Origin: Ereboglobus sp. PH5-10
Lineage (GTDB): Bacteria; Verrucomicrobiota; Verrucomicrobiia; Opitutales; Opitutaceae
Direction: 5' to 3'
Length of the DNA stretch: 64,000 nucleotides
NCBI RefSeq assembly: GCF_029504735.1
Contig: NZ_JAQFIP010000004.1
Coordinates: 124,001-188,000 of the forward strand
Of the stretch, positions 50,660 to 54,412 are shown one piece after another. A program made the translations under genes and the position numbers. Position 1 is the stretch's first letter, and each line of letters opens with the position of its first letter. The notes beneath the pieces were generated by a model, which made no database searches, had not been told where the DNA came from, and was given only the letters and a program-made list of their open reading frames with translations.

Positions 50660-52255
50660 TCACAATAAATCCGCCGCCAGCTCCGCGAGCTTGGAGCGTT
50701 CGCCCTTGGTCAGCGTCACGTGCGCGGCGAGCGACTGGCCGCGCATCCGGTTGTGACAATAGACAAGGCCGTTGCTGCGCGAATCCACATACGGGTTGTC
50801 AATCTGCGCCGGATCGCCGATGAGCACGATTTTAGATCCTTCCGCAATGCGGGTGATCACCGTTTTCACCTCGTGCGGCGTGAGTTGCTGCGCCTCGTCC
50901 AATATGAAAAAGCGCCTCGCAATCGAACGCCCGCGGATGAAGCACAGTGCCTCGATTTCAACCATGCCGTTGCGAATCAGGCGCTCGTAGGGTTTTATTA
51001 TTCCGGCGGTCGCGCCGCCGCCATTTCCGCTTCCGCCGCCGGAAGCGCCCGCAGTCTGCGCAACAGGTGACATCTCCATCGCGTGGGCGCGGGCGTCGTG
51101 CTTAGTCTTCTTTTTCTTTGAGACTTTTTTCACCGCAAACTGCGGATCCTTCGGCGGCTTCGAGGGGATGAGCACTTCGAGCGCGTCGAAATACGGCTGG
51201 AGCCACGGTTTCATTTTTTCCTCAAGGTCGCCGGGCAGAAACCCGATCTCCTTGCCGACGGCAATCACGGGACGCGAAATCGAGACGCCGTCGTAGCGCG
51301 AGCAGGCGTCCTGCGTTTGATGCAGCGCGCACGCGATCGAAAGCAGCGTCTTGCCGGTGCCCGCCTTGCCGAAGCAGGTGACAACCGAGACCGAATCATC
51401 AAGCAGCGCATCCATGAGAAACTGTTGTTCGAGATTGCGCGGGCGGATCGGAATGCCGCCGGGTGCGCGCACGCTTTCGGGAATGCGCAGGCGTCCAACC
51501 GCGCACGAGCCGTCGGCCTCCACACCCGCCACGCGCGCGGGCATGGTTTTGTCCACCTCGGAGCGCAGCAGCACATAGTCGTTGAGGGCAAGTCCGCGCG
51601 ACGCCTCGGCGCCCAGATCGAACCGGCCCTCCGAGCAGAACCGTTGCATTTCATAAATAGTGACGGGGATCTCGCGATATGCGTCCTCGCGCGCCTCGGC
51701 GTCGGCCTCGGGCACCTTGTCGTTGAGATAATCTTGCGACTCCAGCCCGACGGCGCGCGCCTTGAGCTGCACGTTCACGTCCTTCGTCACAAGGATCACC
51801 GGCGGCGGAAACTGCTCCTGCACATACAGCGCGCAGGCGATGATTCGGTTGTCCTTCTTGGACAGGTCGGGAAGCACGGCCTGCAAGCGCAGCATCGCCG
51901 GATTCGCCCCCGCAAAGTGCTGGTCGACCATGTAGTGGTTTATGATCACGAACAACGAGCCTCCATTTCGCAATCGCACGCCCTCGTTCATCGAACGCGC
52001 ATCCGGCAGCAACTCCTGCAGGATTCTATGAACTCGGCGCGCATTGCGCCCGCGCTCGGTCGATTGCTCAGTCTTGATGGTGTCCAGTTCCTCCAAAACC
52101 TCCACGGGAATGACGAGGTTGTTGTCCTCAAACTTGAAGATCGACTGCGGATCGTGCAGGAGGACGTTGGTATCCAAAACGAAGGTTTTAGCCCTCGTCT
52201 TGGGCTCCTTGAGCAACTGTGATTTTGGGGCTTTCGCCCGGCTCAGGCTTTCCAT
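50660..52255 (-). CDS. PhoH family ATPase with N-terminal PIN domain
   Basis: 531 residues. A PIN nuclease-like domain (about 22-150) has FVLDTNVLLHDP, KDNRIIACAL and VTKDVNVQLKA, with acidic metal residues. The PhoH P-loop ATPase domain (about 280-530) has CFGKAGTGKTLLSI, RFFILDEAQQLTPHEVKTVIT and SKIVLIGDPAQID. A Lys-rich/Gly-rich insert (KKKKTKHD, GGGSGNGGG) splits the ATPase core. PIN-PhoH (PhoH2-type) proteins are RNA helicase/ribonucleases. Its 5' leader lies against the duplicated RNA-like sequence. Confidence 0.93.
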   Translation of the reverse strand: MESLSRAKAPKSQLLKEPKTRAKTFVLDTNVLLHDPQSIFKFEDNNLVIPVEVLEELDTIKTEQSTERGRNARRVHRILQELLPDARSMNEGVRLRNGGSLFVIINHYMVDQHFAGANPAMLRLQAVLPDLSKKDNRIIACALYVQEQFPPPVILVTKDVNVQLKARAVGLESQDYLNDKVPEADAEAREDAYREIPVTIYEMQRFCSEGRFDLGAEASRGLALNDYVLLRSEVDKTMPARVAGVEADGSCAVGRLRIPESVRAPGGIPIRPRNLEQQFLMDALLDDSVSVVTCFGKAGTGKTLLSIACALHQTQDACSRYDGVSISRPVIAVGKEIGFLPGDLEEKMKPWLQPYFDALEVLIPSKPPKDPQFAVKKVSKKKKTKHDARAHAMEMSPVAQTAGASGGGSGNGGGATAGIIKPYERLIRNGMVEIEALCFIRGRSIARRFFILDEAQQLTPHEVKTVITRIAEGSKIVLIGDPAQIDNPYVDSRSNGLVYCHNRMRGQSLAAHVTLTKGERSKLAELAADLL

Positions 52256-52323: not shown

Positions 52324-52442
52324 AAAAAAAGAGGCGGCCCGCCTACCCCTAAGCGGACCGCCATTGCTTTCTTTGTTACCCCAAATCTCCCGCTATGCGG
52401 GAGAAATCTGAACTACCTACGCAGAGTAAGACGCGGCCTCTC
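52324..52442 (-). ncRNA. Tandem RNA-like element, copy 1 (phoH-proximal)
   Basis: About 119 nt that match copy 2 (52542-52662) almost perfectly. On the minus strand it reads 5' GCGTCTTACTCTGCGTAGG, then a hairpin CTCCCGC-ATA-GCGGGAG, then GGGGTAACAAAGAAAG, ending in a stem GGCGGTCCGC / GCGGGCCGCC with a TTAGGGGTAG loop, then a T-run. This 3' end is a classic rho-independent terminator. No ORF is present. It is a candidate small RNA, or a duplicated leader of phoH. Family not recognised. Confidence 0.65.
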
Positions 52443-52495
52443 CAAAAAGGATTCAAAAAAATTAAAGATTTTTTTCGCGGCCTCAAACAATCGTC

Positions 52496-52511
52496 TCAAA
52501 CGCTCGTTTGA
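52496..52511. promoter_or_regulatory. Palindromic element upstream of RNA-like copy 1
   Basis: TCAAACG-CT-CGTTTGA, 7-bp arms, 54 nt before the RNA-like start on the minus strand. A near copy lies at the same relative place upstream of copy 2 (52704-52719). May be an operator or promoter element. Confidence 0.5.
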
Positions 52512-52541
52512 ACACTTTTTTCACATTCTCACGGCGCGGGC

Positions 52542-52662
52542 AAAAAAAGAGGGCGGCCCGCCTACCCCTAAGCGGACCGCCCATTGCTTTCTTTGTTACC
52601 CCAAATCTCCCGCTATGCGGGAGAAATCTGAACTACCTACGCAGAGTAAGACGCAGCCTCCC
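52542..52662 (-). ncRNA. Tandem RNA-like element, copy 2
   Basis: Second copy, 219 bp from the first and in the same orientation. It differs by one extra G in the left arm and one extra C in the right arm of the 3' stem (GGGCGG..., ...CCGCCC), a paired change that keeps the stem, plus G to A near the 5' end. The internal hairpin CTCCCGC-ATA-GCGGGAG and loop are identical. The spacer between the copies is AT-rich. Confidence 0.65.
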
Positions 52663-52703
52663 GCAAAATGTTTCAAAATAATCCGGCGCTTTTTCCAAAA
52701 AAC

Positions 52704-52719
52704 TCAAACACTCGTTTGA
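52704..52719. promoter_or_regulatory. Palindromic element upstream of RNA-like copy 2
   Basis: TCAAACA-CT-CGTTTGA, one mismatch in the arms relative to the copy-1 element, 42 nt before the RNA-like start on the minus strand. Confidence 0.45.
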
Positions 52720-52881
52720 ACGGCCCGACAAACCTTTTGACACAAAGAAACAGCAGCCGGTATTAATTAATTTATAATCAATTAATTACGATGCTTAATC
52801 CTTCGACTCCCATCAGCGGCTCGAATCATTTAAATGCCAATTAGTCCGCGCTCCGCGCATGAGTTTAACATAGTTTTTAAA

Positions 52882-53202
52882 CTAAAACTGAGCGTCATCG
52901 CGCCACAAAGTGAACTGATCCCCGGCTTTTTTCTTCTTCGGTCGCGGCTCCGTCCAGATGAGTATCAAGTATTCCGCCAGGTTGCGCATGCTCATGCCGG
53001 TCGAAACATCCTCCAGTTGCCTCACCACGCGGGCGCGCTCGACAAGATAGGCGCGCAATTCCCTGCCCAAAGCCTCCGCCGTCAGATAATCGTCGGGCTG
53101 CGCGGCGGCCACGCTGCGAACCTTTTGCTCCCAGTAGGATTTTTCCTCGGGGTTTGCCCGTATGTAGTCGAGAAGCTGTTGTTCGCCTTGATTCAATGCC
53201 AT
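52882..53202 (-). CDS. Small conserved-looking hypothetical protein
   Basis: 106 residues, no signal or membrane segment. Helix-rich with QGEQQLLDYIRANPEEKSYWEQKV and AEALGRELRAYLVERARV, and a basic PRPKKKK near the C-terminus. Located 73 bp after the REC-histidine kinase gene on the same strand, so it may be co-transcribed. Function unknown. Confidence 0.65.
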   Translation of the reverse strand: MALNQGEQQLLDYIRANPEEKSYWEQKVRSVAAAQPDDYLTAEALGRELRAYLVERARVVRQLEDVSTGMSMRNLAEYLILIWTEPRPKKKKAGDQFTLWRDDAQF

Positions 53203-53275: not shown

Positions 53276-54412
53276 TCACTCCCCCTGCCGGACAGGGCAG
53301 ACGAGCGTCGCCACGGTGCCGCCGCCCTCGCGGTCGGCCAGGGTCAAGTCGCCGCCGAGCGTGCGCAACGTGTGCCTCGCGATGCTCAGGCCCATGCCCA
53401 CGCCGACGTTTTGTTTTGTGCTCACAAAAGGCTCGAACATGTGGTCGCGGATTTCCGGCGAAATGCCCCGCCCCTGATCCTCGACGCTGATCTGAAACGC
53501 ATCCCCGCCGTGCGCCAGTTTTGCAAGGCTGGTTGCAATCGTAATCGGACGCGCACTTGCACCGTCCGCATCCGCGCCGGGCAACCCGTAACTTTCCCAT
53601 GCGTTGACCAGCAGCTTGCCCAAAACATCCTCGAACGACTCCACGTGCACATCGACCTCCAAGTCGCCCAGCGGATTCGAAACAGCCACCGGCGCGGTGA
53701 TTCCAAACGCGTCCTGATAACGCGCGATGCTGTTTCCGATGAGCGCTTGCAGGGGAACGCGGGTCGCCGGCGGACGCGTCCTCACAACAAGCTGGTTGAG
53801 TTGCTTGATAACCCCGGCGATGCGCTTCACCGCGCTCTCGACATTGGCCGCGTTGCCCTTGACGAGCTCCGGCTTGTTATACTGGAGCTTCATCAAATCG
53901 ACGTAGCCGAGCACCACGGCGAGCATGTTGTTCAGATTGTGCGCGATGCCCTGCGTAACCGCGCCGATCAACGCCGCGCGCCGCGCCTCGGCCAGGCGCT
54001 TTTGCAAATCAGCCATCTCGCGGTTTATGCTGATGAGGCGCAGTTGGGTGCGCACGCGCGCCACCATCTCGTCGAGGTCAACCGGCTTTGTGATGTAATC
54101 GACCGCGCCCATCGAAAGCCCCTCGATCTTGTGTTCGCGCGCGCCGCGCGCCGTGACAAAAATAACGGGGATGGCGCGCGTGCCCTCCGCCGCCTGCAAG
54201 CGCCGGCAGACCTCGATGCCGTCCATGTCGGGCATCATGACATCGAGCAAAATCAACGAAGGTCGCGCCCGCGCCACCACATCAAGCGCCTCCTGCCCGG
54301 AATGGGCGGTCGCCACCTGCAGCCCCTCGCGCTCGAGCTTGCGCTTGAGCAGCTGGACGTTGACCGGCTGGTCGTCGACAACGAGGATTTTTTCACGGGT
54401 AAAAGAATTCAT
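53276..54412 (-). CDS. REC-histidine kinase hybrid (two-component signalling)
   Basis: 378 residues. An N-terminal receiver (1-120: ILVVDDQPVN, LILLDVMMPD with Asp57 as phosphoacceptor, VDYITKP) is followed by a coiled linker and a histidine-kinase domain. The H box is GIAHNLNNMLAVV (His158), and the ATPase has GKLLVNAWESYG, DQGRGISPEI and VGVGMGLSIARHTL. It has no membrane or sensing domain, so it is a soluble response-regulator kinase. Its ATG overlaps the methyltransferase stop (ATGA). No output partner is seen here. Confidence 0.93.
   Translation of the reverse strand: MNSFTREKILVVDDQPVNVQLLKRKLEREGLQVATAHSGQEALDVVARARPSLILLDVMMPDMDGIEVCRRLQAAEGTRAIPVIFVTARGAREHKIEGLSMGAVDYITKPVDLDEMVARVRTQLRLISINREMADLQKRLAEARRAALIGAVTQGIAHNLNNMLAVVLGYVDLMKLQYNKPELVKGNAANVESAVKRIAGVIKQLNQLVVRTRPPATRVPLQALIGNSIARYQDAFGITAPVAVSNPLGDLEVDVHVESFEDVLGKLLVNAWESYGLPGADADGASARPITIATSLAKLAHGGDAFQISVEDQGRGISPEIRDHMFEPFVSTKQNVGVGMGLSIARHTLRTLGGDLTLADREGGGTVATLVCPVRQGE

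Follow-up and report, generated by a model that had tools for sequence, protein, structure and literature searches.

Tandem copies of an apparently undescribed RNA family with a duplicated GGGGUA motif lie upstream of phoH in Ereboglobus

The window, by which we mean the whole stretch of 64,000 nucleotides of Ereboglobus sp. PH5-10 DNA analysed here, carries a minus-strand gene for a PIN + PhoH protein (phoH). Upstream of this gene lie two segments of about 120 nt each, at 52324-52440 (copy 1) and 52542-52662 (copy 2), both on the minus strand and 97% identical to each other by BLAST (Table 1). The phoH start is 69 nt downstream of copy 1 and 288 nt downstream of copy 2. The original prediction had singled out two near-identical segments at this place, and both the duplication and its placement stand; only the 5’ boundary was drawn slightly too generously, the predicted transcripts starting, to judge from the promoters, at about 52423 and 52643. 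An AT-rich inverted repeat, TAATTAATTTAT / ATCAATTAATTA, with a 1-nt gap and 92% complementarity, is located upstream of copy 2 at 52764-52788. The neighbours further upstream are a 106-aa ORF with no Pfam match (52882-53202) and a gene for a response regulator-histidine kinase hybrid, recognised by Pfam (53276-54412).

Table 1. Features at the phoH locus; positions count from the first letter of the window.
Feature	Position	Strand	Remark
PIN + PhoH protein gene	50660..52255	-	neighbour, outside the RNA; Pfam PF02562, PF13638
sRNA copy 1	52324..52423	-	predicted transcript of ~100 nt, start placed from the promoter
Copy 1 terminal T-run	52324..52330	-	seven T; sequence
Copy 1 terminator stem	52333..52362	-	13 bp, GGGG loop at 52346-52349; folding, covariation
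Copy 1 GGGGUAA motif	52376..52382	-	unpaired; sequence and alignment
Copy 1 5’ hairpin	52387..52403	-	7 bp, 3-nt loop; helix 1 covaries
Copy 1 ECF-like promoter	52427..52455	-	TGAATC-N16-CGTC; function suggested by consensus
Palindrome-like TCAAACGCTCGTTTGA	52496..52511	.	possible operator upstream of copy-1 promoter; putative role
sRNA copy 2	52542..52643	-	predicted transcript of ~101 nt, start placed from the promoter
Copy 2 terminal T-run	52542..52548	-	seven T; sequence
Copy 2 terminator stem	52551..52582	-	14 bp, GGGG loop at 52565-52568; folding, covariation
Copy 2 GGGGUAA motif	52596..52602	-	unpaired; sequence and alignment
Copy 2 5’ hairpin	52607..52623	-	7 bp; folding and covariation
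Copy 2 ECF-like promoter	52647..52675	-	TGAAAC-N16-CGTC; function suggested by consensus
Palindrome-like TCAAACACTCGTTTGA	52704..52719	.	possible operator upstream of copy-2 promoter; putative role

From 5’ to 3’, each copy consists of a hairpin, an unpaired GGGGUAA, an A-rich linker and a terminator of 13-14 bp with a GGGGUA loop. The perfect 7-bp hairpin that had been claimed for each copy was seen in both, with the same minus-strand sequence (CTCCCGC-ATA-GCGGGAG), as was the GC stem followed by a T-run. The paired insertion that had been read as a compensating change is also real: one G and one C, paired with each other, are added to the terminator stem of copy 2 relative to that of copy 1. 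Compared with dinucleotide shuffles, the fold of copy 1 had a z of -3.8 (1 of 200 shuffles equally good) and that of copy 2 a z of -4.3 (0 of 200). The covariance models described below place the cores of the two copies at G000:C4:176323-176407 and G000:C4:176542-176627, respectively, on contig C4 of their own genome.

The resemblance is not a matter of chance, from which it is far removed: BLAST matches below 1e-5 were obtained in 24 of 25 genomes of the genus and family, the own genome counted. Thirty-three BLAST-found members formed an alignment (A1) that was the source of an RNAalifold structure and then of covariance model R1; 91 members went into a second model, R2. R1 matched 249 of 252 Opitutaceae genomes, with no match in G057, G159 and G180, and the matches included 164 of the 165 genomes of good quality and all 49 of 49 genera. 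In a sample of the order, R2 matched 174 of 273 genomes (138 of 183 in the good-quality subset); 99 of the 273 had no match, and among 20 of these that were listed, 13 were of 1.5 Mb or less and 5 belonged to family f2. R2 matches numbered 51 in 286 genomes of the class and 42 in 288 of the phylum, which, as read from listings ordered by kinship, separate into 51 of 52 same-order genomes versus 0 of 234 others and 42 of 43 versus 0 of 245, the matchless same-order genome being G326.

A loose DNA pattern searched over named genomes found at least 117 loci, 28 of which carried the RNA by nhmmer. Among these 28 listed loci, 27 had titles of the Opitutae or Verrucomicrobia type and one was titled only ‘bacterium’; the named carriers include Verrucomicrobia bacterium IMCC26134, Opitutaceae bacterium EW11, Pelagicoccus sp. 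SDUM812002, a Candidatus Didemnitutus and a Puniceicoccales MAG, and in EW11 the carrier contig is QAYY01000001.1. Because of these titles, we take the order to be the Opitutales in the wide sense; the accessible text of PMC10288369 suggests merging Opitutales and Puniceicoccales for agreement with GTDB. Carrier genomes have a single copy or several, with just one R2 match in many distant genomes of the order sample and a total of four in the own genome, where two further copies lie on other contigs. These counts were taken from R2 at 1e-4, since R1 copy numbers at E<=0.01 are inflated by echoes, in which the palindromic terminator is matched again on the opposite strand (19 of 107 rows in one search, E 1.5e-5 to 1e-3); one echo, in G064, persists at the R2 threshold. 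Three weak BLAST matches to the 5’ end of the RNA were also seen (L302-L304).

The predicted structure is well supported by compensatory variation. RNAalifold resolved two helices in A1, with 14 of 20 pairs varying on both sides. In a larger alignment of 85 distinct sequences (A4), which was fitted to the R1 structure so that its pairing figures lean that way, as those of A1 do not, standard pairs occupied 98.9% of 1666 pair cells, two-sided changes occurred at 18 of 20 pairs, and cells with such changes numbered 238 versus 41.9 in shuffles. As a control, sliding the partner by 1-3 columns lowered pairing to 37-53%. The terminator loop GGGGUA was invariant, all 85 sequences having the same base at each of its six positions, and in the unpaired GGGGUAA that follows hairpin 1 each base was kept in 81-85 of the 85; as far as the aligned members tell, the duplicated GGGGUA motif is the most conserved part of the RNA. 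Five distant members (L220, L217, L138, L227 and L228) have a longer linker with the Shine-Dalgarno-like word AAGGAGTAGTGAAATAG, which the aligned Opitutaceae sequences did not show. A coding reading is rejected: several members lack the AUG that precedes the terminator stem, and the reading frame shifts with stem length among members, leaving no conserved ORF.

The covariance search that the original prediction had proposed has been run, and it returned homologues with covarying stems across the order. At the level of sequence, these lend support to its reading of the segments as tandem small RNAs with intrinsic terminators. Its statement that they match no known RNA family also agrees with our searches, as Rfam 15 gave no family at threshold within the window and, in 13 loci of diverse relatives, only two tRNAs at threshold. 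The best same-strand overlaps in a relaxed Rfam search of 651 bases were sbrA (E 0.96) and the L20 leader (E 1.2), both far under their own gathering scores. We recognised no earlier description in the literature searched, a body of text outside which most subscription papers lie. It is almost certain that the window copies belong to a real and apparently undescribed RNA family.

Each window copy is preceded by an ECF-like promoter sequence, and a strict form of this pattern matched only these two copies in the whole own genome, so that the scan identified neither an ECF regulon nor a sigma factor. A palindrome-like TCAAAC-N4-GTTTGA precedes each of the two promoters, and similar sequences occur in the loci of G001 (three) and G002 (one). 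For the family at large, we counted promoter patterns in the 60 nt before the core in 177 upstream regions (2 of 179 rows had too short an upstream sequence and were left out), with expectations from random windows of the same loci; the 177 include related genomes, and the counts are not independent events. The sigma70-like TTGAC was found in 93 regions versus 6.2 expected, the ECF-like GAA(A/T)C-N-CGTC in 22 versus 1.7, and the sigma54-like TTGGCA-N8-GC in 7 versus 0.2 (10 versus 1.9 in a looser form); 54 regions fitted none of the three patterns. One row matched both sigma54 and TTGAC and three both ECF and TTGAC, these three of the 22 ECF-like matches probably being due to chance. Under assumed spacings, the implied leader before the hairpin has a median length of 12 nt for sigma70-like (-1 to 21), 17 nt for ECF-like (3 to 29) and 11 nt for sigma54-like promoters (1 to 19). 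Judged by consensus, the copies appear to fall into sigma70-like, ECF-like and, more rarely, sigma54-like promoter classes.

The phoH locus holds 17 of the 22 ECF-like matches, a count that takes in the own copies in L001 and L078 (the latter being the L017 locus); two of the remaining five (L176 and L158) lie outside any recognised phoH locus, and the other three are those that match TTGAC as well. Two genomes, G112 and G006, have sigma70-, ECF- and sigma54-like copies side by side, the sigma54-like copy being a good member of the family in G112 (E 3.7e-15) and a weak one in G006 (E 2.9e-6). RpoN is encoded in all 24 genomes checked. The sigma54-like copies L280, L297 and L305 adjoin a GH3-family gene (by Pfam for L280 and L297, by eye for L305), and copies L285/L286 are near an RlmJ gene (by Pfam for L286). 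There are also three more divergent copies in G112 (L276, L277) that fit none of the three promoter patterns; their upstream regions resemble one another near GCGAACACC/GCCGAACACC, which perhaps points to a further promoter class.

Within the Opitutaceae, the RNA has two recurrent home loci. Beside aroF, it lies between a divergent gene with a GCV_T domain (YgfZ-like) and a co-directional DAHP synthase gene of aroF type, beyond which is a malate dehydrogenase gene. Beside phoH, the arrangement to which the window copies belong, it lies between a divergent coiled-coil gene without a Pfam match and the co-directional PIN-PhoH gene. An aroF-type ORF, 300 aa or longer, was present in 42 of 116 loci (two of them, L212 and L216, from another family), phoH in 16, and phoH or the coiled-coil gene in 20; 54 loci had neither aroF, phoH nor the coiled-coil gene. 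The other two copies of the own genome (C6 and C9) are sigma70-like with no aroF adjoining. Among 20 loci from distant families, in which ORFs were picked by length and left unannotated, the ORF that follows the RNA was convergent in 9 and co-directional, with differing genes, in 11; L217 and L222 are not among the 20, as their rows duplicated those of other loci. A convergent ORF followed within 64 nt in six of these distant loci (L030, L209, L210, L214, L218 and L219).

These arrangements bear on whether the RNA acts in cis, as a terminator-type attenuator or riboswitch 5’ of phoH (and aroF). At the home loci the following gene almost always runs in the same direction as the RNA and mostly lies about 40-160 nt beyond it, and this, together with the 11 co-directional distant loci, is what a leader would produce. 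A leader or riboswitch, however, would hold a fixed position before the same co-directional gene, which is not the pattern of the 9 convergent distant loci or of the 54 loci without home-locus genes. The copies on C6 and C9 are likewise away from aroF, a copy with a degenerate ECF-like promoter in G008 lies by the coiled-coil gene with the full-length phoH about 15 kb off, and tandem copies with one promoter each would be odd for a leader. We consider a cis-acting leader improbable; because the next ORF is convergent in 9 of 20 distant loci and the genes differ, the RNA is better read as a putative independent gene than as simply a phoH leader. Read-through effects on phoH or aroF are possible, since at both home loci the RNA is co-directional with the next gene and close to it. 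A partnership with the adjoining PIN-PhoH protein, for instance as a type III-like RNA antitoxin for an RNase, would explain tandem, terminator-bearing copies directly upstream of the PIN + PhoH gene and the presence of phoH in 16 loci. Yet 100 of 116 loci are without phoH, and whereas type III toxin-antitoxin systems have an obligatory toxin gene, the RNA is present in each of the 30 genomes sampled from families f20, f21 and f22, where PhoH is matched only over a short length (E 2e-14 to 3e-12) and a full-length PIN-PhoH match is lacking, so that such a partnership appears very improbable. That the RNA is a functionless repeated terminator or mobile repeat is scarcely credible: it is multicopy, tandem in several genomes and stablest in its terminator, but both stems covary, the two GGGGUA words barely vary, the loci are recurrently syntenic and promoter-like motifs stand at similar distances.

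The general kind of RNA favours base pairing, and we lean modestly towards a stand-alone, trans-acting, multicopy sRNA that would pair through its doubled GGGGUA, with an LhrC-like topology but G-rich. As predicted from sequence, it has a promoter of its own, an intrinsic terminator and no conserved ORF, as is generally expected of an sRNA. Each copy would be an independent gene for an intrinsically terminated non-coding sRNA of about 100 nt that, according to alignment and folding, forms a hairpin at its 5’ end and a long one at the terminator, and presents GGGGUA twice, unpaired after hairpin 1 and in the terminator loop. The two words would take hold of RNAs that contain UACCCC, most probably mRNAs in the region of their start; a scan of the window for UACCCC found six sites outside the RNA genes. 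Action would presumably proceed without Hfq, which was found in 0 of 19 genomes by a search that did find it in 5 of 14 control genomes. The sigma70-like paralogues, at the aroF locus and others, could provide a basal supply, and the ECF-like paralogues of the phoH locus, including the window copies, a stress input with tandem amplification for dosage; candidate sigma54-like paralogues, assigned by consensus, would add to these in some genomes. Several signals might in this way feed one RNA regulator through paralogues under different sigma factors.

Two properties of the motif sit less easily with base pairing. Its G-richness is unlike the C-rich seeds of the Hfq-independent sRNAs known so far, which would count against pairing, and the loop, invariant in 85 of 85, varies less than would be expected of an mRNA seed, as might be the case if a protein bound there. 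The GGGGUA words may instead bind an RNA-binding protein, with copy number and promoter diversity setting the degree of sequestration, a mode of action like that of CsrB/RsmZ or 6S although the RNA would be neither. Such titration accords with a short repeated motif, invariant in the loop, within an otherwise variable molecule, and tandem amplification fits dosage. CsrA, however, which a CsrB/RsmZ-type RNA needs in the same genome, has no match in the own genome or its genus (0 in G000-G003) and is present in 8 of 19 genomes; because the RNA occurs in genomes with and without CsrA, it is not simply a CsrA sponge. The GGA-in-loop pattern of CsrA sites also differs from the conserved GGGGUA. 6S RNA itself is ruled out by the two separate hairpins and by the lack of a bulged rod and of an Rfam match, which weighs against a 6S-like mode as well. 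We regard protein titration as a possible but rather doubtful reading. A more ambitious version, offered tentatively, would make this a master RNA of the Opitutales, in which the sigma70, ECF and sigma54 polymerases would each have a paralogue to transcribe and the doubled GGGGUA would be read by a novel Opitutales RNA-binding protein or a conserved RNA partner. If true, this would give the apparently Hfq-less Opitutales a global post-transcriptional system of their own.

Strongly structured and carried by many Opitutales behind promoters of several kinds, the RNA looks like an important regulator. In the accessible text of a 2022 Rfam-based review, 8 distinct sRNAs are given for the PVC group versus 345 for Proteobacteria (PMC9029176), and little of the post-transcriptional regulation in Verrucomicrobiota seems to have been mapped. 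A covarying RNA that has no Rfam family and is present in 164 of 165 good-quality genomes of its family offers a handle on RNA regulation where no Hfq was found. The promoter split would place the same RNA under different triggers, a clean experimental contrast. The two home loci, the several promoter classes and the duplicated GGGGUA are new beyond the original prediction.

LhrC of Listeria monocytogenes is encoded in tandem copies with stress promoters. Like LhrC, the present RNA is multicopy, and here the copies carry an intrinsic terminator. LhrC has three CU-rich motifs acting at ribosome-binding sites, whereas this RNA has two G-rich GGGGUA motifs; no CU-rich (UCCC) seed of the LhrC type was found, the conserved unpaired motifs being GGGGUAA and GGGGUA. 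According to the accessible text of PMC8383071, LhrC, like this RNA, repeats a short motif, with one site in a single-stranded region and another in the terminator, and its interaction with lapB does not require Hfq. 6C RNA of the Actinobacteria is clade-wide, with C-rich loops, extra copies in some mycobacteria and a function still open (PMC9569102, as far as accessible). It resembles the present RNA as a clade-wide multicopy sRNA, with loops that are C-rich in 6C and G-rich here, and the present RNA is ruled out as a 6C RNA by this G-rich loop and by the lack of a match at gathering or relaxed threshold. Both LhrC and 6C RNA belong to phyla other than that of this RNA, which has no Rfam match. 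In CsrB and RsmZ a G-containing motif recurs in loops or unpaired regions; theirs is GGA, in contrast to GGGGUA at two sites only in an own genome without CsrA. GlmY and GlmZ of enterobacteria, which have RapZ as their partner, differ in structure from this RNA. They are homologous sRNAs, and glmY is transcribed from a sigma54-dependent promoter (accessible parts of PMC7073468 and PMC6075780). Here, by comparison, sigma70-, ECF- and sigma54-like promoters are found on paralogues of one RNA.
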